Source: Myxococcaceae bacterium (lineage in GTDB: Bacteria > Myxococcota > Myxococcia > Myxococcales > Myxococcaceae). Taken from it: a stretch of 58,453 nucleotides of DNA. Positions 28,727 through 56,522 of this stretch are shown here, in pieces. The DNA is taken from positions 1 to 58,453 of the forward strand of contig JADGHL010000015.1 of assembly GCA_019686135.1 (NCBI GenBank), given 5' to 3'. Position numbers and translations under genes: made by a program. Position 1 is the first letter of the stretch. Each line of letters starts with the position of its first letter. The notes below the pieces were generated by a model that was given only the letters and a program-made list of their open reading frames with translations, ran no database searches and was not told the DNA's origin.

Positions 28727-29338
28727 GTGGACGACCTCACACTCGTCAAGCGCGTCAAGAGCGGAGACCAGCGCGCGTTCCGCACCCTGGTGGAGCGCTA
28801 CCAGCGCAAGGTCTACGCGGTCGCGCTGGGGATGTTGAAGGACAAGGAAGAGGCGATGGACGTCTCGCAGGAGGCGTTCGTCAAGGTCTACAAGTACCTC
28901 AACCACTTCAAGGGCGACTCCTCCTTCTACACGTGGCTCTACCGGATCACGGTGAACATCTGCATCGACGTCATCCGCAAGAAGGGCGGTGCGCGCGGGG
29001 AGGATGTGGAGTTCGACGAGGCGGTGGCGCTCGACACGAGCGAGGCCCAGCTGGGCGCGCTGGGATCGCGCCTAGGCACCAACCCTCAGAAGTCGGCGCT
29101 GCGACGTGAGCTGGCGGACAAGATCGAAGAGGCCCTGGCGCAGATCCCCGAGAAGCACCGCGCCATCCTCCTGCTCCGGGAAATCGAAGGGATGAGCTAC
29201 GAGGATCTCGCCCGGGTGCTGGACATCCCGAAGGGTACGGTGATGTCGCGGCTCTTCCACGCCCGGAACAAGGTCCAGAAAATCCTCAGTGAATATCTGG
29301 ACCTGGACGAGTCCAAGCACGGGGTGGGGAACGAATGA
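28727..29338 (+). CDS. RpoE-like ECF sigma factor
   Basis: This 203-residue sigma-70 factor with regions 2 and 4 starts at a GTG. Region 2 shows AFRTLVERYQRKVYAVALGM, EEAMDVSQEAFVKVYKYL and FYTWLYRITVNICIDVIRKK. Region 4 shows IPEKHRAILLLREIEGMSYE and GTVMSRLFHARNKV, the -35 binding helix-turn-helix. This is the classic RpoE subgroup, controlled by a membrane anti-sigma factor, which here is the next gene. The gene ends in ATGATG just before the anti-sigma region. It likely directs an envelope-stress regulon including its own operon. Confidence 0.95.
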   Translation: MDDLTLVKRVKSGDQRAFRTLVERYQRKVYAVALGMLKDKEEAMDVSQEAFVKVYKYLNHFKGDSSFYTWLYRITVNICIDVIRKKGGARGEDVEFDEAVALDTSEAQLGALGSRLGTNPQKSALRRELADKIEEALAQIPEKHRAILLLREIEGMSYEDLARVLDIPKGTVMSRLFHARNKVQKILSEYLDLDESKHGVGNE

Positions 29339-29405
29339 TGCTTCATGGAATATCGCCCCTGCCCTCCCGTCGGACGGAGATGGACCTCCGGAAAGCGGTG
29401 CGGTG

Positions 29406-30047
29406 ATGGCGTTGAACTCTGCGTGCAGAAGCTACCTCCCGATGTTGAGCCCGTTCATCGACGGCGAGCTGTCGGTGGCCGAACGGCAGGCGGTCGAGCG
29501 GCACTGCGCGGCCTGCAAGGACTGCACGGCCCGGGTCGCGGACCTGCGCGCCGAGTCGGGCCTGTTGCGCCTGGGCATGGAGATGCTGGCCGACGAGGCG
29601 GACTTCACCGGCTTCTCCCAGAAGGTCCTGGCCCGGGTGACGCCCGAGCGCCCTCCCTTCTGGGAACGGCTCCGCGTCTCGCTCAGCGAGATGTTCCTCT
29701 ACCAGCGCGGCGCCATGGTCACCGCGCTGGCGGCCTGCGCGGTGGCGGTGCTCGGCGTGGTCGTCCTCTCGCAGCTCGGCCGGACGCCCGAGGGCTATGC
29801 GGGCGACCGGATCCAGGTCCAGCGCGTCTCGGTGGGTGACAACGCGGCGGTGAAGCCGGTCGTCACCACCACCGACACGGGCAACACCATCATCTGGCTG
29901 GTGGACCAGCCGGACGCTTCGGAGCCGGCCCCGCCGCAGAACATCGGCAGCCAGAAGCAGCCGCAGAAGGACGAGGACGAGGAAGAGGAGGAGGAGATCG
30001 GCGGCCCGAATCGGGGCGGCGCGCTCCCCCGGGGAGGGAATCTGTGA
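29406..30047 (+). CDS. Zinc-binding membrane anti-sigma factor
   Basis: This 213-residue protein starts at the ATG at 29406, the first with a nearby GGAAAG. The N-terminal ZAS domain has the H-x3-C-x2-C motif in VERHCAACKDC (H33, C37, C40). A single transmembrane helix follows (VTALAACAVAVLGVVVLSQL), then a periplasmic part and a strongly acidic stretch (DEDEEEEEE) before a Gly-rich end. It should bind and silence the upstream sigma factor until an envelope signal releases it. The GTG of the next gene overlaps its stop. Confidence 0.9.
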   Translation: MALNSACRSYLPMLSPFIDGELSVAERQAVERHCAACKDCTARVADLRAESGLLRLGMEMLADEADFTGFSQKVLARVTPERPPFWERLRVSLSEMFLYQRGAMVTALAACAVAVLGVVVLSQLGRTPEGYAGDRIQVQRVSVGDNAAVKPVVTTTDTGNTIIWLVDQPDASEPAPPQNIGSQKQPQKDEDEEEEEEIGGPNRGGALPRGGNL

Positions 30048-39984: not shown

Positions 39985-40800
39985 TCACACCGCCACGGCG
40001 AAGTCGCGGAGCGCGGCGTTGAGCGAGGTCTTCTTGTCGGTGCTCTCCGAGCGCTTGCCGATGATGAGCGCGCACGGCACCTGGTACTCGCCCGCCGGGA
40101 ACTTCTTCGTCCGCATCCCGGGGATGACCACGCTGCGCGCAGGCACCCGGCCCTTGTAAACCTGCTCGGTGGGGCCGGTGACGTCGATGATGGGCGTGGA
40201 CGCGGTGAGCACCACGTTGGCGCCGAGCACCGCCTCCTCCTCCACGACGCACCCTTCGACGACGATGCAGCGCGATCCGATGAACGCGCCGTCTTCGATG
40301 ATCACCGGCGACGCGGAGGGCGGCTCGAGCACGCCGCCCAGGCCCACGCCGCCGGACAGGTGAACGTTGCGCCCCACCTGCGCGCACGAGCCGACGGTGG
40401 CCCAGGTGTCGACCATCGTCCCCGCTCCGACGTACGCGCCGATGTTGACGTAGCCGGGCATCACCACCGCGCCCTTCTCCACGAAGGCGCCGTACCGCAC
40501 CGTGCCCGGCGGCACCACGCGCACGCCCGCGGCCTGCAGGTTCTTCTTCAGCGGCACCTTGTCATGGAACTCGAAGGGGCCGACCTCCATCACCTCCATC
40601 TGCTGCACCGCGAAGTAGAGGAGGATCGCCTCCTTCACCCAGGCGTTCACCACCCAGCCGGTGGCGCCCTTCTCGGCCACCCGCAGCTTTCCTTCGTCCA
40701 GATGCCGGATCGTCTCCTTCACCGCCTCCACGAAGGACGGATCCTTCAGCTTCGAGCGATCCGCGAACGCCGCCGACACCTTTTCGCGCAGAGTCTCCAT
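39985..40800 (-). CDS. dapD: Tetrahydrodipicolinate N-succinyltransferase
   Basis: This 271-residue left-handed beta-helix acyltransferase makes N-succinyl-2-amino-6-ketopimelate from tetrahydrodipicolinate and succinyl-CoA. Hexapeptide-type repeats are visible from the PPGTVRYGAFVEKGAVVMPG segment through TWATVGSCAQVGRNVHLSGG and GSRCIVVEGCVVEEEAVLGA. Conserved FHDKVPLKK and GYVNIGAYVG match the family. Together with dapE it gives the succinylase branch of diaminopimelate synthesis; dapC is not here. Confidence 0.95.
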   Translation of the reverse strand: METLREKVSAAFADRSKLKDPSFVEAVKETIRHLDEGKLRVAEKGATGWVVNAWVKEAILLYFAVQQMEVMEVGPFEFHDKVPLKKNLQAAGVRVVPPGTVRYGAFVEKGAVVMPGYVNIGAYVGAGTMVDTWATVGSCAQVGRNVHLSGGVGLGGVLEPPSASPVIIEDGAFIGSRCIVVEGCVVEEEAVLGANVVLTASTPIIDVTGPTEQVYKGRVPARSVVIPGMRTKKFPAGEYQVPCALIIGKRSESTDKKTSLNAALRDFAVAV

Positions 40801-40860
40801 GGCGGCGGCTCATACCACCGACACTCCGGGGAGCGGAGCGCGAGCGCCCCGGAGCCGAAG

Positions 40861-43257
40861 TCAGAAGCCGGGGCGCTTGAGCTCGGTCTGGGGTGGCGGC
40901 GTCCCGGTGGTGAGGAAGCTGAAGTCCAGCTCGCTGGAGTCGACCGCCGGTGCGGAGGTCTCCTGCTCGGCGGGCGCCGGCGTCTCCTGACGGCCAAGCG
41001 GTTGCGACGCGACGACGTCCTTCGGCGCCATGTGGACCCGCGGCCGGCCCCGGCGTTCCGACTTCACGAGCGGCGCGACGAGCTCCGAGACGTCCTCGAC
41101 CGCGTGCGCGGTGGGAGCAGGCGTGACCGCGTCGCGTGGACTCGCGGCGCCCTCTTTGACCGGGGTCACCGGCCGGCCCGAGAGATAGGCCACGACGATG
41201 AGCGACGCCGCGAGCGCCGCGACGAACGCGGCGGCGCCCATCAGCCAGCGCTGTAGGTGGCTCGGCCCCGTGACCGGCAACGTCGTGGAGGGCGACTCAC
41301 CGCGTTCCGCGGAAGTCAGCTTGCTGCAGGACGCCTGGTCATCGCTCGGAAGGGAGGTGAGGTCGCCACGTGCCGCTGACATCGACTCGCCGCGCTCAGC
41401 GGAGGCCAGCGCAACGCGTGCCCCGGAGAGGAACTCGCTCCGCTCGACGTTGGGCGTCCCGGCGAGCGACGCGGGTGTCGGCTCAGCACGCTGCGCGAAG
41501 GTCCGCTCACCGTCGGGCGCAGACATCGACTCGCTCCGCCGTGCAGAGATCGCCTCAACCTGCACGGACATCTGCTCGCCCTGCTCCACGGAGTCCGACT
41601 CGACGCCGGGCGGGAACATCACCTCGTTACGTGACGCAGCGGTCCGCTCGCCGCCGAGAGCCGACATCGATTCATTCCGCTGCGCGGAGATCCACTCACC
41701 GTGCGCGGACATCCGCCCGCCCAGTTCAGCAGAGACCAACTCCGCGCCGGGCGGGCACGTCCGCTCACCACGCGACGCGGCGATCCGCTCGCCGCCGACC
41801 GTCGTCATCGATTCATCCCGCTGCGCGGAGATCCACTCACCGTGCACGGACATCCGCCCGCCCAGTTCAGCAGAGACCGACTCTGCAACGGGCGGGTCCG
41901 TCCGCTCGCCATGGGGCGCAGCGATCCGCTCGACGCCGACCGTCGACATCGATTCATTCCGCTGCGCGGAGATCCACTCACCGTGCACGGGCATCCGCCC
42001 GCCCAGTTCAGCGGAGACCAACTCTGCGCCGGGCAGGTCCGTCCGCTCGCCATGGGGCGCAGCGATCCGCTCGACGCCGACCGTCGACATCGATTCATTC
42101 CGCTGCGCGGAGAGCTGCTCACCGTGCACGGACATCAACCCGCCCTGTTCAGCAGAGACCGACTCTGCGGCGGGCGGGTCCGTCCGCTCGACATGGGGCG
42201 CGGTCATCCGCTCACTTCCGTGCGCCGACATCAACTCGCTCTGCCGTGTGGTCATCCGCCCGGCGCCCTGCGCGGGAATGAGCTCGCTTCGCTGCGCGGA
42301 GATCGGCCCGGTCCGATGTGTCGACGTCGGCTCCGCGCGTTGAGAGGACATCCGCTCATCACGCTCGTCGCGCCTGGCGGCGTTCATCGCCGGCGCCGAC
42401 GTGACGGCGGTGGATCGCGCGCCATCCACGCACGCTGCGCCAGCGCGACGCTCCGGCGGATTCGGCAAGCGCTCGCAGCACATCGCGAGCGCCTGGGCGG
42501 CCTCGCTGGCCGTCAGCCTCGCCAGCGGATCCGGATCGATCATCCGCTTCACGACGGCGCGGACGGCCGGGCCGAAGGCGCGGGGCAGCTCGGGCGTCCA
42601 TTGGCCGGTGGCGATCTGATGCACGACCGCGAGCGTGGTGCCTCCGGGCGGCAGCTGGCCTCCCGCCGCCATGCACATCACGGCTCCGAGCGCGTACACG
42701 TCCGACGGCATCGACACGGGCAGGCCGCGAGCACGTTCGGGGGCAAGGTACGGCGCGACCTTGATCAGCAACGCCAGCGCGCGCTCCTCGCCGCGGCGAT
42801 CGGTCAGGCGATTGGCCAGGACCAGCGGCGCGTCCCAGAGGATGGCCCTGCCCTCCTCCAGCATCAGCACGGAGTCTGCGGAGAGCTCGCCGTGGACGAT
42901 CTTCTGCGCGTGCAGCGTGGCGAGCGCGCCGGCGATCGACGCGCCCATGCGCAGGACGTGGCCGGAGGCGATCGGCTCGAGGCCGATCATCGTGGACAGC
43001 AGCCGGCCCTCGGGGAAATCCATCGCCACCCACGCCGACGAGCCCAGCCGCCCGGTCTGGCGGATCCGCGGCAGCACGGGGTGCTGCGGGATCTGCTCCA
43101 GCGCCTTGACCGCGGCCTCCCCGTTCGCGTCCACCGGCAGCCAGCGGATCGCCAAGCGCGTCCCGGACTGGGTGTCCTCGGCGCAATCCAGCGACCCCAC
43201 GCCATCACACCTCAGCGGCGTCTGGATACGGAACTTCGGCTCGAGCTCGGACCTCAT
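40861..43257 (-). CDS. Membrane pseudokinase with Ser-rich octapeptide repeats
   Basis: This 798-residue protein has a Ser/Thr kinase fold at residues 5-270 that looks catalytically dead. The ATP-lysine position reads LAIRWL (Arg38), the HRDLKPEN loop is HGELSADS (Gly123, Glu124, Ser126), and DFG is WDAPL. The APE motif (LAPER) and SDVYALGAV remain, so the fold is kept. Residues about 280-655 consist of octapeptide-type repeats (ISAQRNES, MSTVGVER, IAAPHGER and variants) arranged in 47-residue superunits. One transmembrane helix follows (LMGAAAFVAALAASLIVVAY) and a 104-residue Pro-rich tail. GGGGGAG precedes the ATG. It is the last gene of a minus-strand series with envelope proteins. Confidence 0.85.
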   Translation of the reverse strand: MRSELEPKFRIQTPLRCDGVGSLDCAEDTQSGTRLAIRWLPVDANGEAAVKALEQIPQHPVLPRIRQTGRLGSSAWVAMDFPEGRLLSTMIGLEPIASGHVLRMGASIAGALATLHAQKIVHGELSADSVLMLEEGRAILWDAPLVLANRLTDRRGEERALALLIKVAPYLAPERARGLPVSMPSDVYALGAVMCMAAGGQLPPGGTTLAVVHQIATGQWTPELPRAFGPAVRAVVKRMIDPDPLARLTASEAAQALAMCCERLPNPPERRAGAACVDGARSTAVTSAPAMNAARRDERDERMSSQRAEPTSTHRTGPISAQRSELIPAQGAGRMTTRQSELMSAHGSERMTAPHVERTDPPAAESVSAEQGGLMSVHGEQLSAQRNESMSTVGVERIAAPHGERTDLPGAELVSAELGGRMPVHGEWISAQRNESMSTVGVERIAAPHGERTDPPVAESVSAELGGRMSVHGEWISAQRDESMTTVGGERIAASRGERTCPPGAELVSAELGGRMSAHGEWISAQRNESMSALGGERTAASRNEVMFPPGVESDSVEQGEQMSVQVEAISARRSESMSAPDGERTFAQRAEPTPASLAGTPNVERSEFLSGARVALASAERGESMSAARGDLTSLPSDDQASCSKLTSAERGESPSTTLPVTGPSHLQRWLMGAAAFVAALAASLIVVAYLSGRPVTPVKEGAASPRDAVTPAPTAHAVEDVSELVAPLVKSERRGRPRVHMAPKDVVASQPLGRQETPAPAEQETSAPAVDSSELDFSFLTTGTPPPQTELKRPGF
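41659..42222. repeat. Four tandem 141-bp repeats inside the pseudokinase gene
   Basis: Units begin at 41659, 41800, 41941 and 42082, each exactly 141 bp apart (47 codons). All share a near-identical start around CGACATCGATTCATTCCGCT (CGTCATCGATTCATCCCGCT in the unit at 41800). Within each unit a 24-bp sub-repeat encodes one octapeptide. Divergence between units is low, which suggests recent expansion or gene conversion. Further, more diverged octapeptide units extend on both sides (about 41300-42420). Confidence 0.9.
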
Positions 43258-43269
43258 CTCGGCTCCCCC

Positions 43270-45729
43270 TTACTGACTCTCGACGATCAACCCGCCAGCG
43301 CCGACGAAAGTGATCTGTCCGCCGCCGACCGCGCTCCCCACCAGCGCGCGGCTGCCGATGTACGCGGTCGTCCACGCATTGCCGTCGAACCGCGCCACCG
43401 TTCCACCCGCCGCGGCGTAGAACTCTGTCTCGGAGATGCCGACGAGCTCCGTGAGCGACGACTTGCCCGGGAGCGCCTTCCACGCGCTCTGGTGGAACGC
43501 GTAGAAGAGGTTGTCCCCGGCGACGAACAGATCGGTGGGCGAGGCGTACACCGCGCGCAGATCCCCGCTCGTGGGCAACGGCGGGCCGGCCTTGCTCCAG
43601 ACCCCGGCGTTCAACTTCAGCACCACGCCGTCCGCTCCCGCCGCGAACGCCTCGCCGGCGCCGGCGCAGGCCACCGCGAACAGGTCGGCCGCCGTGCCGC
43701 TGTTCATCGCAGTGAGCGTCGTACCGTCGTACTTGAGGATCTTCCCGGCCTCGCCCACCAGGAACACCTCGCTGTCGGTGTTGCGGCAGCCGGCGTGCAG
43801 ATCCTGCGTCCCGCCGCCGGACTGGGAGACGTAGCCCGCCGAGGGCGTGAACTTCACGACCTTGCCGTTGGCGCCGAACAGCAGCACCCAGGCATTCGCC
43901 CCCACCACGCCTTCGTAGTCGGGGCTGGTGAACGGGCTGCGCGCGAAGTCGAACGTGTCCTTGCCCGGGTCGTGGACCGCGAGGTCGCCGAACGCGTTGA
44001 CGAACACGCGCCGCCCGGCAGGGTTCACGTCGACGTCGACCCAGTCTTCGGCGAGGTCGAGCGCCTCATAGGTGATGGCGCCGCGCCGGAAGATGTTGGC
44101 CGCAGTGGGTCCGGAGTCCGCCACCAGCACGCCGCCGGAGTCGTTGCGCGACATGGCCTGATGATCGAGGTACAGCGTGAGCAGCTCGGTGGGCGCGCTC
44201 CCTTTGACCCAGCGATAGAGCGTCCCCACCGAACCGCTCACGGTGAAAAACGCGGCGTTGGCGTTGCTCGAGTCGCCCGCGATGCCGACCACGTTGCTGC
44301 CGACGAAGCCGCTCGGCGTGTTGAGTTGATCGAGATCCCCGCTGCTCTCGTCGTGGCGGTACACGGTCGTGCCCTGGCTCACGAACGCGTAACCGCTGTC
44401 GAGCGAGGGGCCGACCGCGCTGAACCCGGCGGACAGCAGCGACGAGAGGCTCGTCGGATCGACGTACCAGCTCGAGGCGCTGACGTCGTCGGCGTAGAGC
44501 AGGCACGGCCGGGTGAGCGCGGCGAGCGTGGTGCACTGCCCGGCGATCCGCTCGGACCCGTCCGAGTCCACCCAGGCCTGCACCATCGAGTAGCTGTACG
44601 ACGACGGCGGCGCGGGCGCCTGCGTGAAGTGCGTTCCGTCGGTGCTGCGCCAGGCGCTGCCGTCCTTTCCGGCGATCAGCACGTGCGATGCGCCGCTGCC
44701 GTGCACGGAGACGAGATCGGTCCCGCCGACGCCGGGCAGCGCCAGCGGGGTGACGGTGGTGCCATCCACCCGGAGCGCGGTGCCGCTGTCGCCCACGATG
44801 TACGCCACGTTCGCCGACCGCATCCACACTGACGTCAGGTCCTGGACGGTGTTGGTGACGAGCGGCGTGAAGGCGCTGCCGTCCCACCGGGCCGCGTAGC
44901 CGTTGGGCCCCACGACCAGCGCCGCGGAGGGCGAGACGAGATCCACCGCGGTCACCGCCGAGCGCACCCGCGGCCCCACCTGCGCGAACGACCGCGTCGC
45001 CGCCACGCACGCGCCGCCGACGCACAGGCCGGGACACGGCGCCGACATCTTCGCGTAGACGCACTGGCCATTGTCCGGATTGCACGTGCCCTGGGGTCCG
45101 AAGGTCACCAGCGTCTGGCCCATGCACACGGGCGCAGGCGGCATGTCGCAGGTCACGTTCGCGCAGAGATCGAGGCCCTTGCACTCGCCGCCGGCGCAGC
45201 CGCCCGGACAGCTCACCTCGCGGGAGGTGAACCGGCACTGGCCGGCGGCGCTGTCGCAGGTCCCCGGCCCGACGTAGACGCGCGCGGTGTCCGCGTCGAC
45301 GCACTCCAGCGGTGGCGCTTCGTCGCAGCTCATCCCCAAGCAGGGATCGCCCCTGCACGCACCGTCCACGCAGCCGTGCTCGCAGGCGACCTCATTGGAG
45401 CCGTACGTGCAGGCGCCGTTGGCATCGCAGCTCCCGCGGGGCGCAAAGGCGATCAACGTCGAGTCGTCCTTGCACCGGTTCGCCGGCGGCGTGGTGCACT
45501 GCGAGGCGCTGCACGCGGACGAACCTTTGGTGGCGTGACACACCCCGCTCACGCACGTGTACCCGGGCGGGCACTGGTTGCCGACGTCACACTTGTAGCC
45601 TTCGGGGTCGACGGCGATGTCGGTCGCGCAGCCCGCGCCGAACAGTACGGCCGCGGCGAGCCACCCAGCGCCGCGCATCAGGCTGCGCGCCGGGCAACGT
45701 CCCGTGGTGACGCGTGCGGTGCGCCTCAT
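43270..45729 (-). CDS. Cys-rich, propeller-type surface lipoprotein
   Basis: This 819-residue protein's ATG overlaps the stop of the upstream TPR gene. A lipoprotein signal (AAAVLFGAGC) is followed by a head of about 200 residues. The head has four Cys-rich modules of about 45-50 residues; each has CxxPPxxxC, an aromatic strand, GxC and a closing C-x3-C or similar (CTTPPANRC, GSCDANGACTYGS, CEHGCVDGAC). About 550 residues then read as a propeller with repeated VWMRSANVAYIVGDSG- and LFAVACAGAGEAFAAG-type blades. It should be displayed on the outer membrane; the ligand is unknown. It lies 12 bp upstream of the pseudokinase gene. Confidence 0.82.
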   Translation of the reverse strand: MRRTARVTTGRCPARSLMRGAGWLAAAVLFGAGCATDIAVDPEGYKCDVGNQCPPGYTCVSGVCHATKGSSACSASQCTTPPANRCKDDSTLIAFAPRGSCDANGACTYGSNEVACEHGCVDGACRGDPCLGMSCDEAPPLECVDADTARVYVGPGTCDSAAGQCRFTSREVSCPGGCAGGECKGLDLCANVTCDMPPAPVCMGQTLVTFGPQGTCNPDNGQCVYAKMSAPCPGLCVGGACVAATRSFAQVGPRVRSAVTAVDLVSPSAALVVGPNGYAARWDGSAFTPLVTNTVQDLTSVWMRSANVAYIVGDSGTALRVDGTTVTPLALPGVGGTDLVSVHGSGASHVLIAGKDGSAWRSTDGTHFTQAPAPPSSYSYSMVQAWVDSDGSERIAGQCTTLAALTRPCLLYADDVSASSWYVDPTSLSSLLSAGFSAVGPSLDSGYAFVSQGTTVYRHDESSGDLDQLNTPSGFVGSNVVGIAGDSSNANAAFFTVSGSVGTLYRWVKGSAPTELLTLYLDHQAMSRNDSGGVLVADSGPTAANIFRRGAITYEALDLAEDWVDVDVNPAGRRVFVNAFGDLAVHDPGKDTFDFARSPFTSPDYEGVVGANAWVLLFGANGKVVKFTPSAGYVSQSGGGTQDLHAGCRNTDSEVFLVGEAGKILKYDGTTLTAMNSGTAADLFAVACAGAGEAFAAGADGVVLKLNAGVWSKAGPPLPTSGDLRAVYASPTDLFVAGDNLFYAFHQSAWKALPGKSSLTELVGISETEFYAAAGGTVARFDGNAWTTAYIGSRALVGSAVGGGQITFVGAGGLIVESQ

Positions 45730-46661
45730 CGCGCAGCTCCTGCGGATCCGGCGTGCGCTTCGCGGGCCATCCCCGGTTCAGGGAACGTGAACGCGAACAC
45801 CGCGCCTCCGGCCAGAAGCCCTGCGCCGCCCGCAAGCCACAGCACATTGGCGGTCGCGCCCTTCGACCCGGCGGAGCGCGCCAGCGCCTGCGCCTGGCTC
45901 ACGGTGAGCGCGGACCGGTCCTCCAGCCGCGCCACCTCCGACCGGCTGAGGGCGCCGAATGCCGTCCCCACGCCGAGCGCCGCCACCGACGCGCCCATCA
46001 GGACCCACGACGAGACGTGCGCCACGCTCCGGACGCTCGGGCGCGCAGCGCTCATTCCGGAGAGGCCGGACACCGCGACCGGTTCGCCCTCTGCAGTGAG
46101 CAGCGGCGGGGGCACCGGCTCGAGCTGCTCCAGCACCGCCCGCCCGGTGATGACGGACACCTTCCGCGTCAGCCGCGGCGCGCCGTCCGGCCCCAGCATC
46201 TGGACCTCGAAGTCTCCGGGCGGGAGGAACACCGCCACCGGCGCCTGCGGAAAGCGGTGATGGTCGATGACGATCTCCCCCGGCGCGCTGGACTCCAGCT
46301 CCACCAGGCCGCGCCCCTCCGCCTCCATCTTCGAGAGGATGTCGCCGAGGATCTCCGCCACCTCGAGCGCGTCGGCCGCCTCGGGCGCGCGCCGCAGGTA
46401 GAGCCGGTAGTAGTACGCGGCCATCGGCGCATCGCCGATCTTCTCGTGGGCCTTCGCCAGGTTGTAGGCCAGCTCGGGCGTCACCCGCAGCGCATCCGCG
46501 GCGCGGAAGTTCCAGATCGCCGCGCCGTACTCCTGGGCCTCGAACTGCTTCTCCCCCTCGAGCACGTACGCCTTGAACTGCGCCTGCTCCGCCGGGGAGA
46601 GCACCGGGCCGGTCCCCGAAGCAGCGGCCAGCGTCACGGCTGTGAGGATCCACGTCACCAT
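45726..46661 (-). CDS. Exported TPR/PEGA-like protein
   Basis: This 311-residue protein has a signal peptide (VTWILTAVTLAAASG). TPR-like helices follow (AQFKAYVLEGEKQFEAQEYG, ELAYNLAKAHEKIGDAPM, AAYYYRLYLRRAPEAADALE), then a PEGA-like beta segment (GLVELESSAPGEIVIDHHRF, VAVFLPPGDFEVQMLG) and two hydrophobic helices (SSWVLMGASVAALGVGTAFG, VLWLAGGAGLLAGGAVFAF). It is the first gene of a tight three-gene unit with the Cys-rich lipoprotein and the pseudokinase. A scaffold role in the envelope is inferred. Confidence 0.8.
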   Translation of the reverse strand: MVTWILTAVTLAAASGTGPVLSPAEQAQFKAYVLEGEKQFEAQEYGAAIWNFRAADALRVTPELAYNLAKAHEKIGDAPMAAYYYRLYLRRAPEAADALEVAEILGDILSKMEAEGRGLVELESSAPGEIVIDHHRFPQAPVAVFLPPGDFEVQMLGPDGAPRLTRKVSVITGRAVLEQLEPVPPPLLTAEGEPVAVSGLSGMSAARPSVRSVAHVSSWVLMGASVAALGVGTAFGALSRSEVARLEDRSALTVSQAQALARSAGSKGATANVLWLAGGAGLLAGGAVFAFTFPEPGMAREAHAGSAGAAR

Positions 46662-46755
46662 CGGATGCTCCGGGGCGGGCGCCTATACCCCAGGCAAACG
46701 GCTACAAACAACCACATGTAGGATTGAGTGTGACCGGCCGACGGAGCGCGGCGCG

Positions 46756-49700
46756 CTACTCGCCGACGATCCGGATGTTGTCCACGTAGAGACCCTTGCC
46801 GCCCGCGGGGCAGTTCACCAGCGAGTTGCCGCCGCCGATCGCCAGCAGGAAGCGCAGCTTCACAGTGGCGTTCTTGTACGGGGTGAGGTCGTACTCCCGG
46901 GCCTGGTACGCGCTGGCGCCGCCGCCGGTGAAGGTGGCCAGGGTGACCGGGTTGCCGCCGAACACCACCACCGCGCTGCCGGAGTCGTTCGGCGAGGGCC
47001 CCATCTCGTGCCACTCGTCGAACCGGAGCTTCACGCTGGAGAGGTTGGGCAGCGTGACGTCGCGCTCCAGCACCACCGTCTGCGCCTTCCCGCCGAGGAG
47101 GTCACAGACGCGCGCGTAGTTCTGTCCGTCGGTCACGTTCGACCCGCGCCACACCAGCGTGGAGTTCTGCGGATCGGACACCGAGTTGAGCGCCTTCCAC
47201 TGGTTGGAGCCGGTCACCGGCGCGCTCCACAGCGGCTCCGGCATCGGATCCATGTCGTCCGCGAAGATGATCCGCTGCGTCCGGAAGATGCAGGTGTAGT
47301 CGGAGGCCATGTTGGCGCTGGTGGCCGCGTCCTGGACCTGAGTCTTGTCGATGAAGACCTCGTAGACCGTGTCGTGCAGCAGTGGCGCGCCCGGGGTGAG
47401 CGTGGCCACCGTCTGCCCGGCGGTGTGCGCGACGCTGGCGGCCACGGGCGTACCGCCAACGCGCAGCCGGATCGCGCTGGCGTCGAGCGCGCCGCCGCCG
47501 GCCTTCTGCACGCCGGGATCGAACTGGACGGTGATGGTCGTCGCCCCGAGCGCGTCCGCGTCGACCACGCTGCCGCACGGGCTGACCGCGACGACGGACG
47601 GGCCCACCGAGGAGACGGTGAACGAGTACGTGTCGCTCACGGTGTTGCCGGCGAGGTCCGCGGCGCGCGTGCCATCCACCTTCACCGTGTAGGTGCCATC
47701 CAACAGCTTCGCGGCGGGGCGGAGGAAGGCGGTCCGGCCGGAGGCGTCGTACCAGACGGACGCCAGCACCGGCGTGTTGCCCTGGTTGAGCGTAATCGAC
47801 GCCGCGTCGATGGTGTCCGGATCCACGTCCTCGCTGAACACCAGCTCCACGCCCACGCTGCTGCCGACCGTGGATCCGGCGGCCGGGTTACGCGAGATGA
47901 CCGTGGGGCTGGTGCCATCGACGGTGAAGCTGAAGGTGGACGAAGCGGCGGTCGCGTCCAGCGCGTTGCCGGAAAGGTCGGTCAGGCCGCCCCAGCACGC
48001 GCACCGTGTACGCCGTGCCGGGCTGCAGCGCGATGGACGGCGTGAGCGAGGCGGTGTCGCTCTGCACCTGGTAGACGAGCCCGAAGGGGATCTTCGTCCC
48101 GCCGGCATCTTCAATGGAGAACTGCGCCAGGGAGACGCTCGTCGGATCGAGCGGGTAGGAGAAGCTGATCTGGATCGTCGGCCGCGCGCTCACCCCGGTG
48201 GCACTGTCTGCCGGGACGGTGCTGGCCACGGCCGGGCGGGTGATGTCGTGCGCGGAGTTCGCCACGGTGGTGAACGAGCGCGTGACGTCCGCGGTCGTCG
48301 CGAGCCCCTCTTTGTCTGCGAGCCCGGCCTTCACGGTGACGGTGATGGTGGCACCCGCGGGGAGATCCGCCGCCGAGACGAACACCGCAGACGCGGTCGA
48401 ATCGTCGTAGCTGAGCGCGCCCTGGAGGAGCTGGGGCCCGTCCGAGAGCTCGACGTGGAGCGTGGCCGGGTCGATGGGCTCGCTGAACGCCAGCCGCACG
48501 CGCACGTTCACGTTCACGTCGGTCGCGCCGTCGGCAGGGGCGATCGCCGTGAGCGTCGGCTCGGAGTTGGCCTGGGTGGTGAAGCCGACCGTGTTGGTGC
48601 CCGCCTTCGCGTTGCCGGAGAGGTCCTTGATTCCGGTGCCCACGGTAAAGCTCAGCTGCGTGTTCGCGGGCAGCGGCTGCGACGGGATGAACACCACCGT
48701 GTTCTGCGCCTGCACGTACTCGATCCGCCCGGGGATCGCCGTGGTGCCCTGCATCAGCGAGATGTTCGCGCTGGAGAGCGAGGTTGGGTCGATCGGCTCG
48801 GAGAAGATCGCCGACGGCGTGTGGCCGCGCGCGACGCCCACCTGCCCCTGCTGCGGATCGATGGCGACGATCGTGGGCGCGGTGTTGTCGGGCGCGCCGC
48901 CGGCCACGAAGGAGGTGGAGATGACGCCGCCCACCGCGTTGCCGGTGAGGTCCTTGAGCGCGGCGCCGTTCACCACCACGGTGTAGCGCTTGCCCGCGGT
49001 CCACACGTCCGGCGCGCCCAGGGTGGTGCGGGTGATGCGGATCGATCGGGTGGCGGCCTCGTACTGGATCGCCCCCTCGATGACCGCGCCGTCCTCATAG
49101 AGCGTGACGGTGTTCTTCGGCGTCCCAGTGGCCGGCGTGATGGTGACGGTGCTCGCGTCCAGCGCCTTGTTGGCGACCATCACCAGCGCAGACCCGCTGG
49201 CCACGCCGGTGGCATTCGGCGCCGGGTTGATCGAGACGATGCGCGGGAGCGGTTCGGTGGTGAACGACGTGCGGAACTCGTTGGCGAGCGTGTTGCCGTG
49301 CACATCCGCGAGCGCAGTGGACGCGATGATGGTGTACGCGGTGGTCTCGAACAGAGGGGAGGTGGGCGTCAGCTCCACCGTGGTGGGGCTGACCACCGTC
49401 AGCGTGGTGGGCACGTCGGCCGCGCTGTCGGAGAGGCGGACGTTGGCGGGGGTGAAGGTGGCCGTGTCCATGTCCTCGCTGAAGGTGAGCGTCACCTTCG
49501 CGTTGACCGGCACGTCGGTGACGCCCGCCGCGGGCGAAACCATCACCACCTGCGGAGCGATGCCCAAGGTGGTGAAGGAGAAGCGGTACTCGGCGCCGAA
49601 CGGGACCCCGGTGGCCGCGTGCGCGCCGGTGGTGACCACCACCGTGTAGAGGGTGGACTCATCCAGCGTCGACGACGGCGTGAGGGTCAAACTGATGGCG

Positions 49701-50893
49701 GTGGGGACATAAGCCGCGGGCAACTTCTGCTGCGCCGGGTCTTCGATCCACACGTTGTCGCTGGTGAGCGTGGACACGTCCATCGGCTGGCTGAAGGTCA
49801 GCTCGACGGAGGCCCCCAGCGACACGCCGGTGGCGTCGGCGGCCGGAAAGGAGGCACTCACCGTCGGCGCCGGCGCCACGGTGAAGGACGCGGTGAAGGC
49901 CTCCGCCAACGCGATGCCCGAGACGTCCTTCGCCCCCGGCGTGAGAGTGACGACGATGACCGCGCCGCCCGGATACGCCGCGTCCGGATGGAAGGTCGCC
50001 GTATGGGAGGGCGCGTCGTACGCGTAGGTGCCCGCGATGGGCCCACCGCCCTGCACCGCCACCACGAAGGTGTCGCTCGCGAACGTGGCCGGGTCCATGT
50101 CCTCGCTGAAGGTGATGGTGACGTCCGCATTGCCCGCCACGTCGGTCGACTGGTCCGCCGGGGTGATGCCGGTCACCGTCGGAATGGTCGCGGCGGTGGT
50201 GAACGTCCAGACCTTCGAAGCATCGAGGTGGGTGCCGTTGGCGTCGGCCACGTCGGTGGTGAGAGTGGCGGTGTACTGGCGGCTCTCGAGGAGCGGCTTC
50301 GCCGGCGTGAAGGTGGCGAGGTGCTCGCCGTCGTCGTAGCTGACCGTGCCGGCGATCTGCGTAAAGCCGTCCGCCAACAGGAAGCTGGCGTCGGTGATGG
50401 TCGCCCCGTCCATGGCCTTGCTGAACCGCGCGGTTACCGTGGTGTTGGGGGCCACGTGGATGGCGCCGTCCGCGGGAGAGGTCTGCGTGACGGTGGGCGC
50501 TGTCGTGGCGGTAATGAAGCCGACCGATGCGGGCTGACCCGCGTTGCCCGCCTTGTCCGCGTAGGCGTCGACCCGGAAGGTGTAGGCGGCGTTCTCGCGC
50601 AGCGCCGCCTTCGGCGCGAAGGTCGCCTTCGACCCCTCCACGCCGAGCTCGCCCTCGACTGCGGTGGCGTCGTCCAGAAGCTGCACGTGGACCGAGTCGG
50701 GCTTCACCGCCTCGGAGAAGGTGACCACGATGGTCGTCTCGATCGCCACGTCGGTGGCGCCGTCCCCGGGCTCGATCGACTTCACCGTCGGAGGCACCGT
50801 GTCCTTCGCCGGCGGCGGTTTGGCCGGGCAGGCGGTCAGCACCACTGCCGCCAACGCGGTGGATGCAGCGCGAAGAAGCGGCGTCCGAGTCAT
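46756..50893 (-). CDS. Giant secreted protein with about 11 Ig-like (Big_5) domains, frameshifted as given
   Basis: Two overlapping frames, 50893-47888 and 48114-46756, form one gene of about 1,380 residues. A lipoprotein-like signal (ALAAVVLTAC) is followed by about eleven domains of roughly 105 residues. Each begins PxVxxxxPADGATDV, continues VTFSEDMDPAT and ends before SFTT, the Big_5/SbsA Ig-like pattern. Domain 9 runs from QPGTAYTVRVLG in the first frame straight into GLTDLSGNALDATAASSTF in the second, so a 1-bp shift lies near 47985-47995, beside a run of Cs. The C-terminus (DDMDPMPEPLWSA, GGKGLYVDNIRIVGE) looks like a jelly-roll cap. It could be a sequencing error, a natural mutation or, less likely, programmed. 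Confidence 0.85.
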
Positions 50894-50946
50894 GATCTCG
50901 TTACCCCCGTCGTTCCGAGGGATTGAAACCGGCCGCAGTGGTTGGA

Positions 50947-52062
50947 TCAGTAGATGGTGACGGTGGCGTTCAGCGTCGCCGAACCGTGGAGCAGCGGGTT
51001 GCTGTCATCCACCTTGATGGTGAACGTCCAGGTCCCGCGCTGCGTGGGGATGCCGGAAATGGTGTTACCCGCCACCGAGAGCCCGGGCGGCAGTACCGAC
51101 CCCTGTGGCACCGACCACCCGTAGGGCGGGGTGCCCGATCCGGCCCGGAGCTCATAGGAGTACGGCGTGCCCACGCGTCCATCCGGGAGCCCGGCGGTCA
51201 GAAGGTAGAAGGTGATGTTGCCGCCTTTGGAGATGGTCACCGTGCGCGACGCGGACTGCCGCGCCGGGCCGGTGTCGTCGACCTGCAGGGTGAAGGTGCC
51301 CGAGCCGGAGAAGTTGCCGCTGCTCATCAGCACCCCGCCGTCGATGAACAAACCGGCCGGGAGCGTGCCGCCGTCGACGGACCAGAGGAGCGGCGCCCCC
51401 GAGCCGCCGATGGCCAAAAGCGGCTCGGAGTACTTCCTGCCATCGGAGTTGGTGAGTTTCTCCGGGCTGGCCACGCGCAGGCGCGGCTCGATGGTGAGCG
51501 TGTACGCGCGGCGATCGGTCGAGGGCACCTCCGCGCTGTCACGGACGTCGATGGTGAACGTCGCGGTGCCGGCCTCATCCGGCGTGCCGCTGAGCGTCCC
51601 CAGGGTGAAGGAGATGCCTTTGGGCAGCATGCCGTCGACGAAGGTGAACGTGTACGGCGGCACCCCGCCCTCCACCTGGAGCGTGTGCTGATAGGGCAGC
51701 TGCTCCACCGCGTCCGGCAGCACCGGCTCCAGCATCACGCCGCCATCTTCGTCACCGCCGTCCGGAGTGCCCGCGTCCATTCCCCCATCGGACGTGCCGG
51801 CATCCTCGCCCGCATCCGCCCCCGCATCGTCGAAGCCCGCATCCGATGGGCCGGCGTCCGGGTTCCCGCCAGCGTCGACCATGGGCGCGCACGGCCGGGT
51901 CTCGCCGCAGCGGGGCAGGCAGATCCGCTCCTCACGCAGGCAGACCTTCTGCGGATCCGCGCACTGGAACGCGTCGTCGCACCGCTCGTAGCCGGAGTAG
52001 TCCGGACGGAAGGTGCAGGCGGACAGCGCCGCCATCAGCGCGATGAGCGGCACCCGCTTCAT
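50947..52062 (-). CDS. Ig-like (He_PIG) lipoprotein with DAG linker
   Basis: This 371-residue protein has a lipoprotein signal (LIALMAALSAC), then a Cys-bearing head (YERCDDAFQCADPQKVC, LPRCGETRPC) and a DAG linker (DAGPSDAGFDDAGADAGEDAG). Three putative Ig/cadherin-like domains follow, each with VPPYTFTFVDGMLPKGISF or APLLWSVDGGTLPAGLFI or TPPYGWSVPQGSVLPPGLSV, the pattern of He_PIG domains. It overlaps the upstream gene by 4 bp and precedes the giant Ig-like gene by 53 bp. Confidence 0.85.
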   Translation of the reverse strand: MKRVPLIALMAALSACTFRPDYSGYERCDDAFQCADPQKVCLREERICLPRCGETRPCAPMVDAGGNPDAGPSDAGFDDAGADAGEDAGTSDGGMDAGTPDGGDEDGGVMLEPVLPDAVEQLPYQHTLQVEGGVPPYTFTFVDGMLPKGISFTLGTLSGTPDEAGTATFTIDVRDSAEVPSTDRRAYTLTIEPRLRVASPEKLTNSDGRKYSEPLLAIGGSGAPLLWSVDGGTLPAGLFIDGGVLMSSGNFSGSGTFTLQVDDTGPARQSASRTVTISKGGNITFYLLTAGLPDGRVGTPYSYELRAGSGTPPYGWSVPQGSVLPPGLSVAGNTISGIPTQRGTWTFTIKVDDSNPLLHGSATLNATVTIY

Positions 52063-52859
52063 GGGAGCTCCACCATGAACACCACCGCCACACCCGCGCC
52101 GAAGAGTGCACCGGCGCCGAACAGGACGTTGGCCGCCAGAGCCTGGTTCTTCCCCGCCTGCACCGTGTCCTCGAAGCAGCGCACGTAGGCCTCCCCCTGC
52201 CCGGCGCAGCCGGTCCGTTGCCGGGAGATCCGCTCGGCGGTGAGCTGCGATGCGGAGGCGAAGGCCACCCCGCCCGCGAGCGCCGCCACCGCCGCCGTGC
52301 CCAACGCCACCTCCGGCCAGCGCGAACGCCTCGGCCGCGCCGGTTCGGCGACCGCTTCGACGCCGTTGGCGATGGACCGCCCCAGCCGCGCGTCGTGGAA
52401 GAGCGCGATGACCGTCTCAGCCGGCTGCCGCTCGTCGAGCGCCGAGCCCGACGCATAGGTCCCGCGCTGCACCACGTTCCCGTCCGCCGGCCAGAGGGTG
52501 ATGGCCACCGTGTGGCCGCCGCCGAACCCGTACGCGGTGCCGGACACCAGCCAGTCCGCGTCGAACTTCCGCGCCAGCGCCTTTCGGCACGCCGCGTCGG
52601 TGCACACCGGGAGCCGTAGGCCTTCGAACGTCCGGAGCACCTCCACCGCCTTCGCGCGCGGCTGCACGCACACCGAGAGGTTGCGGGCGATGAGCGCGCG
52701 CAGCGCCTCCTCCTCCTCCAGCGCTTCGTCGGGCGTGAGCCCGGAGGGCTCGAGCGGAACGACGACGACTCGCTCGCAGCCAGCCGGGGCTGCTTCCGCG
52801 GATGCGAGGGACGAGCGAAGGAGCGCGAGCAGCGCGAGGACCGCGAAGGTGAACCGCAC
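52059..52859 (-). CDS. Exported FlgO/CsgG-like protein
   Basis: This 266-residue protein has a signal peptide (FAVLALLALLRSSLASA). Its domain has a TolB-N/FlgO-like pattern: CERVVVVPLEPSGL, a helix, VQPRAKAVEVLRT, LPVCTDAACRKALARKFDAD and WLVSGTAYGFGGGHTVAITL. The C-terminal third has two hydrophobic segments (EVALGTAAVAALAGGVAFAS, LFGAGALFGAGVAVVFMVEL) with a Cys pair between them (RTGCAGQGEAYVRCFE). It sits 19 bp after the caspase-like gene and overlaps the next gene's start. A role at the outer membrane is inferred. Confidence 0.75.
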   Translation of the reverse strand: MRFTFAVLALLALLRSSLASAEAAPAGCERVVVVPLEPSGLTPDEALEEEEALRALIARNLSVCVQPRAKAVEVLRTFEGLRLPVCTDAACRKALARKFDADWLVSGTAYGFGGGHTVAITLWPADGNVVQRGTYASGSALDERQPAETVIALFHDARLGRSIANGVEAVAEPARPRRSRWPEVALGTAAVAALAGGVAFASASQLTAERISRQRTGCAGQGEAYVRCFEDTVQAGKNQALAANVLFGAGALFGAGVAVVFMVELP

Positions 52860-52877
52860 GTCGCGAACTCTACCCGC

Positions 52878-54119
52878 TCACGGTTCCAGCCGGGGGGCCG
52901 CCGCCGGAGCCACCGGCCGTTCGCCGGTGCTGGTGACGAAGCCCTCGTAGAACCGCGGGCCGTAGGGGATGGAGAACAGATCGTCCCGGAACGTCTCCTC
53001 CAAAGAGCCGCGCGAGGCGACGGTGCGCTCCCGCCACAGGAGCGTGGCGCCGTCGATCAGCTTCGTGCCGTGCTCGAGGCGCACCGCCGCCTCACGGGTG
53101 GTCGAGCGCAGGAACAGCTCGCGGCCGGTGGGGAGCGCGAGCACCGTGGCGCGGTCCTTCTCCTTGTGCAGCTCCACGAGGCGCACGCCGCGCTCGTCTT
53201 CGACGACGAAGTGGCCGCCCATCCCGGCGGGGAGGGTGACGAAGCCCAGCCGCGAAGGCCGGGTGAGATCGACCAGTGGGTACGTGTGGTCCTGGGCCGG
53301 CGGGCGGGCGAAGACCTCGGGGCGGGCGCGCGGATCCTCCACCCGCGCATTCGCCGCGGCGATGAACGCGCGCAGCTCGGAGTACTCCACCCGCCCGTCC
53401 GCGTTCACGTCCGCGGCGCCGGAGAGCGCGGAGAGGACCTGGTGGGAGAACACGCCACCAAAGATGCCGGACCACTCGTGGCTCTCCTGCGCGCTGGCGG
53501 TCGAGAGCACCACGCCCACGTTCGGGTACTGCTCGAGGGTGCGCTCGTCGAGGAAGCGCTTCACCGCGCCGGCGTAGCTCTCCGCCCGAGGGAGCGCGCC
53601 GCGGCTGTTGACGAAGAAGTAAGAGTCGCACGCATCGACGATGAGGTGCACGAAGCGCGCGTGGGTCCGCGCCAGTACCTGCTGGTAGAGCTGCGTCCGG
53701 GTGAAGTTCTTCCCAAGGAGGCTGATGCTCCCCTCGCCCGCCTCGCCGCGCTGACCGTGACCGGTGAAGACGAAGTAGAGCACCGGGTCGCGGCCGGCGT
53801 CGCGGTCGGCGGCCATCTGCCGGTCGAGCCGCTCGAACGCGTCGAAGAGCTCGCGCTCGGTGGGCGGGCGCGTTTTCGACGCGAGGCCCGGGTGCCGCGC
53901 CTGGGTGTCCCCGTCCAGAACGGTGAGCAGCGCCGCGTCCTTCGACTGCGGCTCGAGCAGCTCGTAGAAGCGCGCCCCGTCGTCGTCCGCGAAGCGCAAC
54001 GGCGGCACCTTCGGGTCGTTGCTCCGGTTGTTGGAGACGATCAGCGCGTACTGGACCCGCTCACCGGCGGACGCTGCGGTCGGCAGCACGGCGAGAAGGA
54101 GGGCGAGCGTCCAACGCAT
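52878..54119 (-). CDS. Secreted caspase-like protease (C14) with EF-hand loop
   Basis: This 413-residue protein opens at the ATG at 54119 with a signal peptide (LALLLAVLPTAASA). The caspase p20-type domain has the catalytic His in VFTGHGQRGE (H121) and Cys in HLIVDACDSYFF (C164), with ALIVSNNR before them. Right after it comes a canonical 12-residue EF-hand loop, DVNADGRVEYSE (D237, N239, D241, E245, E248), which suggests calcium control. The C-terminal 130 residues form a beta-rich region (RLGFVTLPAGMGGHFVVEDE). It is the first gene of the minus-strand cluster and diverges from an ECF sigma/anti-sigma pair. Confidence 0.85.
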   Translation of the reverse strand: MRWTLALLLAVLPTAASAGERVQYALIVSNNRSNDPKVPPLRFADDDGARFYELLEPQSKDAALLTVLDGDTQARHPGLASKTRPPTERELFDAFERLDRQMAADRDAGRDPVLYFVFTGHGQRGEAGEGSISLLGKNFTRTQLYQQVLARTHARFVHLIVDACDSYFFVNSRGALPRAESYAGAVKRFLDERTLEQYPNVGVVLSTASAQESHEWSGIFGGVFSHQVLSALSGAADVNADGRVEYSELRAFIAAANARVEDPRARPEVFARPPAQDHTYPLVDLTRPSRLGFVTLPAGMGGHFVVEDERGVRLVELHKEKDRATVLALPTGRELFLRSTTREAAVRLEHGTKLIDGATLLWRERTVASRGSLEETFRDDLFSIPYGPRFYEGFVTSTGERPVAPAAAPRLEP

Positions 54120-54224
54120 GCACGTGGATCCAAAGCACAAAGCGGGCGATCCGGAAAACCCGCGCTGCGGCAATGCAGCACGGGGTGACGGACGGTCCTT
54201 CCCTGTGTCAGAAGGGGCGCCCAA

Positions 54225-54869
54225 ATGGCGTGGGACCGTCAGCTCCTGATGGGTTTTCGCGAGGGCGCGCCCGACGCGCTGGCGGAGGTCTTCCGTCAGA
54301 ACGCCGAGCTCCTCACGCGACGGCTGCGCGCCGCTGCCTGGCGCGGGAGAGGTTTCGAGCGCTTGCGGTCCGAGCTCGAGCTGGAGAACGCGGTGCTGGA
54401 GGTCTTCGCCCGGGCCTTCGAGCCACGCGCGCGTGGTGTGTACGACGGGGTCCGACCGTTCGAGCACTTCCTGATGGGCATCGCCCGCAACTTCCTGCTC
54501 GAAGAGGCGCGCATCCGCGAGCACTCCGCAGGCATCAACCGCGAGCTGGAGGAACAGGTGGAGCGGGTGCTCATGCAGGATGCGCCCGTCGACGCCGAAC
54601 AGGAGCTGGTGGACCGCGAGCTGGAGGGCCTGCTGGAGCAGTTCAAGCGTTCGCTTTCGCCCGAGGAGTTGCAGCTGTTCGACCTACGCTTCACCCAGGA
54701 GCTGGGTCAGGAGGAGGCGGCGGCGCGGATCGGCCTGTCCCGCATCCAGCTCCGCCGGCGCGAGCTGGCGCTGAAGAAGCTCCTCCTGGAGTTCCTCAAG
54801 GAGCGCGGCTACCTCCGCGGGCTGGAGGCCGCCGGCTGGACGTTCGTTCGCAGGAGCACCGGATCATGA
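54225..54869 (+). CDS. ECF-type RNA polymerase sigma factor
   Basis: This 214-residue sigma factor starts at the ATG at 54225 behind AGAAGGGG. Region 2 is divergent (LENAVLEVFARAFEPRARGV, RPFEHFLMGIARNFLLEEAR), while region 4 keeps LSPEELQLFDLRFTQELGQE and AAARIGLSRIQLRRRELALK as the DNA-binding helix-turn-helix. It shares a 105-bp intergenic region with the divergent caspase-like gene. Its stop overlaps the anti-sigma start (ATGA). It probably controls the flanking cluster, which is an inference from position. Confidence 0.88.
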   Translation: MAWDRQLLMGFREGAPDALAEVFRQNAELLTRRLRAAAWRGRGFERLRSELELENAVLEVFARAFEPRARGVYDGVRPFEHFLMGIARNFLLEEARIREHSAGINRELEEQVERVLMQDAPVDAEQELVDRELEGLLEQFKRSLSPEELQLFDLRFTQELGQEEAAARIGLSRIQLRRRELALKKLLLEFLKERGYLRGLEAAGWTFVRRSTGS

Positions 54870-55654
54870 GCTGCACCGACACCACCGCCCACCTCGCGCT
54901 GGAGCAGCTGTTCGTCGGAGAGCTCTCCGAGGTCGCCCACCTCGAGCTCCGTGAGCATGCGCGCACCTGTGCGGAATGCCACGAAGCGTACGACCGGCTC
55001 ACCCGGGTGGAGGCGCAGCTGGAGAAATCCCGCTCCGGGCTGCCGGCCGCGCGGATGAAGTTCCTGGAGTCGCAGGTCCTCTCGCGCGCCGCCGCCCAAA
55101 AGCGCGCCGCGCAGGCCCGGGCCGACGCGGGCGGAGACCGCTCGCTGTGGACGCGGGTGCGGCTGTGGCTGGTGCCGGCCGGTGGGCTGGCGCTCGCGGG
55201 CGTGCTGGCGCTGATGCTGTTGCCGAAGTCACCGCCCCCGGGCGTGGACGCGGACGGCTTCCAGGCGCGCGGCGCCGGCGCTGCCGCGGCGAAGTCCATC
55301 TACGGCGTGCGCGCGTTCTGCATCCAGCCGGAGGGCGCAAAGAACGTCTCCCCGAAGGTGCTCGCCGAGGCCGGGCCGGGCGAGACGCTCACGTGCGCAG
55401 TCGGCAACCGCGTGCAGTTCGCCTACACCGCGCCCAAAGATGCGCGCCTCACCCTCGCCGCCCCCACGCCGGCGGGCGACTGGCTCACCTTCGCCTCGCG
55501 CATCGAGGTGAAGAAGGGAACCGACGTTCCGCTGTCCTTTTCCACGCCGGTCACAACGAGCTGGCTGTCGCAGCCGATCGAGGTGAAGGCGCGGTTCGAG
55601 GATCCGGCGACCGGGAAGCTGGTCGCCGAGACCACGTTGAAGGTGACCCCGTAG
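54866..55654 (+). CDS. Anti-sigma factor with zinc finger and periplasmic domain
   Basis: This 262-residue protein overlaps the sigma gene by 4 bp. The zinc motif is REHARTCAECHEAY (H31, C35, C38). A transmembrane helix (LWLVPAGGLALAGVLALMLL) is followed by an external domain of about 140 residues with a Cys pair (RAFCIQPEG, LTCAVGNRVQF) and beta strands. The external part is probably the sensor. Partner specificity for the upstream sigma factor follows from coupling. Confidence 0.87.
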   Translation: MSCTDTTAHLALEQLFVGELSEVAHLELREHARTCAECHEAYDRLTRVEAQLEKSRSGLPAARMKFLESQVLSRAAAQKRAAQARADAGGDRSLWTRVRLWLVPAGGLALAGVLALMLLPKSPPPGVDADGFQARGAGAAAAKSIYGVRAFCIQPEGAKNVSPKVLAEAGPGETLTCAVGNRVQFAYTAPKDARLTLAAPTPAGDWLTFASRIEVKKGTDVPLSFSTPVTTSWLSQPIEVKARFEDPATGKLVAETTLKVTP

Positions 55655-55745
55655 ACCCTGCTGGCGCGCGCCTTGCCTCCGCGACGGCGGCCCGCGGGCT
55701 CTGCCCAGCGGCTGCCACGGTTTTCTGAGAGGAGGGCGGCTCACC

Positions 55746-56522
55746 ATGAAGCGCACGTCAAGTGTGGGCGCGGCGATCACCGCGCTGGCAGTTTCGGCGA
55801 CCGTCGTCGTCGCGTGTGGGAAGCCGGAGACAACCGGCCCCCGGGACGCAGGACCCGGTTCCGTTCTGGATGCAGGCTTGAAGGATTCCGGCACCGAGCT
55901 CCCGGACAGCGGGCTCGATGCGGGCGATGGCGTCGACGCCGGCGGTGACATGGACGCCGGCGAAATCGCCGATGCGGGCGAGCGCGATGGCGGTGAGGTC
56001 GCGGACGCGGGCACGGGCGAGCAAGACGGCGGCGAGGTGGCGGACGCGGGCGCGGTGGATGGTGGCGAAGCGCCGGACGGAGGCTGCGGGCCCTCGCACG
56101 CGCTGCTCTATCAGGTGAAGGCGAAGGACATCGGCTGGCCGGTCAACTGGCCCAGCTGCTACTCCGGTACTCCGGCGGACTGCACGAACATCCTCGTCGA
56201 GCGCTTCGCCACGCAGGTGGAGCTCGACACCTTCTTCACCAACGAGCTGCAGATGACCGCGCCCACGGTGAACTTCAACCTCGCCGACGCGATGGTGGCG
56301 TACAGCTGCGCGTGCCCGACGTACGGGTACACGCTGGACGCGATCGGGGTGACCAGCGACGGGTGCACGGTCGAGCTCGCCACCGAATTCCAGATGCCGG
56401 ACGAGTCCTGCCTGACCTGGCAGACCTTCTCGCGGCCGTTCGTGCTGGTGGAGATCGAAAAGGACGGCGGCGTGGGAAACAGCGTCGTCCACCGGGACAT
56501 CATGTACAGCTGCGGCCCCTAG
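55746..56522 (+). CDS. DAG-linker lipoprotein
   Basis: This 258-residue protein starts at the ATG after GAGAGGAGGGCG. Lipoprotein signal ([12 protein letters not shown]) is followed by a long DAG/DGG linker ([20 protein letters not shown]). A Cys-rich domain of about 140 residues comes last ([60 protein letters not shown]). No family is recognised. Stop codons of this gene and rnhA overlap (CTAG). Confidence 0.78.

Follow-up and report, generated by a model that had tools for sequence, protein, structure and literature searches.

In the 58,453-nucleotide contig JADGHL010000015.1 of a Myxococcaceae bacterium (GenBank assembly GCA_019686135.1; this whole stretch is called the window here), positions 40861 to 55654 encode an extracytoplasmic function (ECF) sigma factor (SIG) and its anti-sigma factor (ASIG) on one strand and, divergent from them, an exported caspase-like protease (CASP), a FlgO-like protein, an immunoglobulin-like (Ig) lipoprotein (IgLP), a Big_5 lipoprotein (BIG5), a TPR protein, a Cys-rich lipoprotein (PROP) and a pseudokinase (KIN). 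An earlier note on this DNA had proposed that the seven minus-strand genes and the sigma pair form one new envelope system. Comparison with related genomes indicates that the locus is probably made up of two independently conserved modules that lie side by side: module A, consisting of SIG and ASIG divergent from CASP, the FlgO-like gene and IgLP, which would be one lineage of a triad of sigma factor, anti-sigma factor and caspase found across the Myxococcota, and module B, consisting of the TPR, PROP and KIN genes. All functional statements made below rest on inference from sequence.

Gene order was evaluated in a survey of 96 genomes of the family and a wider survey of 195 Myxococcota genomes, with genes in the relatives called by a simple GC-frame caller that may miss small genes. 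It was found that the five-gene order of module A was present in 25 fetched loci, in hosts that include Archangium, Hyalangium, Corallococcus and relatives, with unrelated genes beyond the five. For these genes, the proposal of a regulated set of exported proteins is borne out. The order TPR-PROP-KIN was kept in at least 12 other genomes (loci L078-L091, L144 and L146), in none of them beside a caspase gene, and neither a sigma factor nor a caspase was found near module B in any of 20 other loci. A CASP orthologue was present in 45 and a KIN orthologue in 21 of the 96 family genomes, and both were present in 5 genomes compared to the 9.8 expected (Fisher one-sided p = 0.015, phylogeny ignored). 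Therefore, there is no positive association between A and B, and we claim nothing further from these numbers. Among the five genomes that carry both modules, only the window genome has them adjacent; in the other four (G019, G064, G065 and G066), they are on different contigs, which in G065 and G066 are large and had their neighborhoods fetched. The junction between A and B thus occurs in the window genome only, the outcome that the earlier note had itself named as speaking against its single system, and it is the two sub-sets, not the whole locus, that are conserved far above chance. Mirror-tree correlations among the five module A genes were 0.87 to 0.98, but these values are inflated by species history and are not counted as proof.

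The coordinates of the features are given in Table 1. The gaps between the seven minus-strand genes, from the caspase to the kinase gene, are 18, -4, 53, 94, -4 and 12 bp, SIG starts 105 bp from the start of CASP, and ASIG overlaps SIG by 4 bp; the layout is as first described, with gaps of -4 to 94 bp and a sigma pair diverging at 105 bp.

Table 1. Features of the two modules and of the region between them (window coordinates).
Feature	Position	Strand	Basis or remark
SIG, ECF sigma factor (module A)	54225..54869	+	NCBIfam match and orthologues
ASIG, single-pass anti-sigma factor (module A)	54866..55654	+	zinc motif, transmembrane segment, DUF4384-like outer domain
Divergent SIG/CASP intergenic region	54120..54224	.	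conserved element at 54148-54173
CASP, exported caspase/metacaspase-like protease with EF-hand loop and C-terminal beta domain	52878..54119	-	dyad, AlphaFold2 model
FlgO-like exported protein	52059..52859	-	fold match, C-terminal transmembrane hairpin, five invariant Cys
IgLP, Ig lipoprotein: Cys-rich mini-domain, Asp/Gly linker, three He_PIG domains	50947..52062	-	
BIG5 lipoprotein, first open reading frame (ORF), lipobox LTAC, nine Big_5 domains	47888..50893	-	Pfam Big_5 E = 2e-155
BIG5, second ORF, one Big_5 domain, weak MAM-like end	46756..48114	-	past frameshift
TPR (PEGA-like) exported protein with C-terminal transmembrane hairpin (module B)	45726..46661	-	adjacent PROP/KIN orthologues
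PROP, Cys-rich lipoprotein with repeat domain (module B)	43270..45729	-	orthologues
KIN, pseudokinase (module B)	40861..43257	-	degenerate motifs
141-bp x 4.9 tandem repeat in KIN linker	41522..42213	-	

Module A is a variant of an already known sigma/metacaspase arrangement. According to Asplund-Samuelsson et al. (2012; PMC3501461), four of the five Myxococcus xanthus metacaspases are in operons with sigma-70 factors, and the same arrangement is found in Anaeromyxobacter, Haliangium, Sorangium, Ralstonia and Fibrobacter. The word "new" in the earlier note was therefore too strong. Like module A, the operons described there have a sigma factor beside a C14 caspase homologue and are present in several copies per genome; they are colinear, whereas module A is divergent, and the text consulted makes no mention of the anti-sigma factor, the FlgO-like gene, the lipoproteins that accompany the caspase or the intergenic element.

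The spread of the triad was evaluated with a profile built from CASP orthologues, which identified related caspases in 107 of the 195 Myxococcota genomes. Of 51 distant caspase loci, 43 had a SIG-type gene no more than 4 kb away, mostly in the order sigma, anti-sigma, caspase. These 43 loci have the feature that defines the published operons, namely a sigma gene that neighbors the caspase gene, an arrangement kept across the Deltaproteobacteria. The downstream partners vary and include FG-GAP/fn3, beta-helix, Cys-rich and propeller-like lipoproteins as well as DUF7151 lipoproteins with LRR-like segments. A third, more distant caspase class has the same triad, with anti-sigma factors that resemble zf-HC2 plus DUF4384. 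Other ECF genes beside caspase-like proteases are known from the EACC2/TRADD-N conflict systems and the ECF54/CHAT contexts (PMC8195603, PMC8999054); those systems are described as having intracellular adaptor or TPR domains, whereas CASP is exported and its anti-sigma factor is transmembrane. No DUF1822 or adaptor family was found among the Pfam matches of the locus, although the coverage of EACC2/TRADD-N by Pfam was unchecked.

SIG matches the NCBIfam sigma70-ECF model above its cut-off (E = 2e-12), and orthologues with 44-57% identity were found at all type-1 caspase loci. The zinc motif of ASIG (H31-x3-C35-x2-C38) is invariant among homologues and is followed by a single transmembrane segment (about residues 101-119) and an outer domain with conserved C152 and C177, in which a resemblance to DUF4384 was detected in relatives only and below the cut-off. 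The pair has the features of an ECF sigma factor with a class I zinc anti-sigma factor (ECF domain, HxxxCxxC motif, one transmembrane segment and adjoining genes); the DUF4384-like outer domain, the conserved Cys pair and a basic motif in the stalk distinguish ASIG from that class in general.

The intergenic region between SIG and CASP contains an element, TTGTC-N16-GGAT(C/T), which reads GATCC-N16-GACAA towards the sigma gene and whose spacing is exactly the same in 15 of the 19 regions that were aligned. The window copy, at 54148-54173 on the plus strand, differs at one position (GATCC-N16-GGCAA) and is the sole exact match to TTGYC-N16-GGATC in the window, in which matches with two mismatches occur at chance level. 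This element is a putative ECF promoter. In each of seven genomes, the strict pattern had 0 to 4 matches, and such a low number suggests that the regulon is local; a wider regulon was considered and rejected, as the three strict matches elsewhere in the window genome are at a chance-like level.

The assignment of CASP as a caspase-like protease is supported by the invariance of H121 and C164 in 54 of 54 homologues and by an AlphaFold2 model (pLDDT 83) that matches metacaspases (PDB, E about 1e-5), the Geobacter caspase-like structure 3bij and legumain, that is, a His-Cys dyad in a p20-like fold as in C14 caspases and metacaspases. The window protein itself scores under the Pfam threshold for C14, whereas 8 of 16 orthologues match Peptidase_C14 (PF00656). 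The predicted EF-hand is also supported: in the loop D237-N239-D241-E248, the acidic residues D237, D241 and E248 are invariant among the 54 homologues. Conserved Asp positions may point to a basic P1 specificity (Arg/Lys).

Taken together, these features and the export signals of module A proteins suggest that SIG most likely activates the expression of a calcium-binding caspase of the Arg/Lys type, which is exported, and of its partner lipoproteins. In the model that we propose, membrane-bound ASIG would hold SIG until an envelope signal acts on the ASIG outer domain, and the freed SIG would transcribe both arms from the divergent region, with production of CASP and its partners. The exported CASP would, in a calcium-dependent manner, cut after Arg or Lys and thereby process an envelope protein, which might be the stalk of ASIG or one of the partner lipoproteins. 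The LpoB/PelC-like protein (the FlgO-like protein of Table 1) and the lipoproteins could anchor or present CASP in the outer envelope.

In a more specific reading, CASP would act on its own anti-sigma factor as the site-1 protease, and a cut after a conserved Arg/Lys in the stalk (F/W-x-x-R/K-G, R135 in ASIG) would free SIG. In nearly all anti-sigma factors linked to a caspase, the motif is found on the outer side of the membrane, 3-20 residues away from it, with the Arg replaced only by Lys, and CASP retains the Asp expected, from metacaspases, for a basic S1 pocket. A hydrophobic-x-x-R/K-G sequence was found in just 2 of 37 other zinc anti-sigma factors, which, however, lack the outer domain. 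The motif is nevertheless kept in four caspase-free anti-sigma factors of the DUF4384 type (L273, which is beside matrixins, L292, L297 and L301), and it may therefore be a structural or family feature, which weakens its use as proof of caspase cleavage. We regard the site-1 reading as unlikely, and the same low probability applies to its extension, in which caspase-driven regulated proteolysis of anti-sigma factors would exist in many copies per myxobacterial genome, each with its own surface lipoprotein.

The interpretation of the locus as two modules has points against it. A scan of 40700-55900 detected neither a sigma-70-type promoter nor a minus-strand terminator, and so transcription may read through from A into B in the window genome. 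Furthermore, in four other loci (L099, L103, L104 and L106), the gene that comes directly after the caspase gene encodes a PROP-like lipoprotein, and A and B may for this reason be functionally related. These observations, together with the shared strand and the short gaps, are also what favors a single nine-gene envelope system in which the pseudokinase is the output of the caspase/Ig structure. Such a system is improbable in view of the survey results given above (adjacency in one genome, co-occurrence below expectation, separation in four genomes and 20 module B loci apart from sigma factors and caspases), and the window scan found no exact intergenic-type element upstream of BIG5 or TPR. 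The earlier suggestion that the pseudokinase is the intracellular output of such a system is likewise not supported.

A device for cell death or developmental lysis, which metacaspase homology and a role suggested for Myxococcus metacaspases in 2012 (PMC3501461) would favor, is also improbable for module A, because CASP is exported, lacks intracellular death domains and is associated with surface lipoproteins. The constant association of this exported class with a sigma/anti-sigma pair and variable surface lipoproteins favors envelope sensing or surface remodeling over intracellular death. The triad is multicopy in tractable myxobacteria, which makes its role testable.

The FlgO-like protein resembles FlgO at the level of the fold, which matches LpoB, GNA1162, PelC, FlgT and TolB (N-type). 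The FlgO Pfam domain had no match in 16 orthologues, and flagellar gene context is absent, so that membership in the FlgO family does not hold. Relative to LpoB, PelC, GNA1162 and FlgT, the protein has an additional C-terminal transmembrane hairpin and five invariant Cys. In IgLP, the Cys-rich N-terminal module is invariant, and the three He_PIG domains that follow the Asp/Gly linker are strong Pfam matches.

BIG5 had been described as a giant Ig-like fiber. The Ig part of this description stands, with ten strong Big_5 domains (Pfam), whereas the single gene does not: BIG5 consists of two ORFs in different frames, with a break near 47990 (47980-48000) at a GGGGCGG run. The Big_5 homology runs through this frameshift, which may be a sequencing error in the 245-contig draft or a real break. 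In two related genomes (L145 and L147), the position directly after IgLP is occupied by a different Ig-repeat lipoprotein of the HYDIN/ASH type; in L044, a lipoprotein with a MopE motif is found there. Most likely, BIG5 occupies this variable slot, and it would belong to module A.

In module B, KIN contains, as had been predicted, a pseudokinase domain and a membrane anchor, which is a single transmembrane segment (about residues 672-690); it also has a repetitive linker. Arg replaces the VAIK Lys (AxRW), HGE replaces HRD, and WDxP replaces DFG in the window protein and in 11 of 11 orthologues examined; the VAIK Lys, HRD Asp and DFG Gly of an active Ser/Thr kinase are thus absent. The C-terminal tail (DFxFL...ELKRPxF) is conserved, with the ELKRPxF ending present in most of these 12 sequences. 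KIN is probably a non-catalytic cytoplasmic scaffold with a periplasmic tail that binds operon partners. The Pfam TPR match of the TPR protein is weak. PROP is a Cys-rich lipoprotein as described, but the propeller assigned to it is not proven, as no Pfam domain was matched.

Among the 195 genomes, the KIN family is confined to one GTDB family (f1), and module B thus adds a conserved degenerate kinase that is apparently family-restricted. A literature search found no description of module B, and the operon is apparently undescribed. EcpK of M. xanthus (PMC12004946) is likewise a myxobacterial membrane pseudokinase; it is of the bacterial tyrosine-kinase type, whereas KIN is of a degenerate Ser/Thr type and in a different operon. 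An anti-phage kinase system (PD-T4-6, MADS6) was considered and rejected, because there were partial kinase-domain matches without partner genes; the mad6 score was 62 bits compared to the NCBIfam cut-off of 460.

Several minor observations were made at these and other loci. In L050, L051 and L052, the triad is followed by DUF7151 and LRR-like lipoproteins near chemosensory-type genes. At L273:4391-6663, a DUF4384-class sigma/anti-sigma pair is located beside a secreted matrixin-type metalloprotease, with no caspase and with a second similar gene downstream. Another sigma-factor-like gene is present in the window at 28727-30047, with a zf-HC2 anti-sigma-like gene after it (zf-HC2 match at 29424-29525). 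The repeat in the KIN linker of the window strain has a 141-bp unit in 4.9 copies (86% match) and encodes a 47-residue repeat. KIN paralogues outside module B (L137, L138 and L149) adjoin genes that have a kinase domain of their own, with weak similarity; this may be a pairing of kinase and pseudokinase, in genomes in which kinase density is high.

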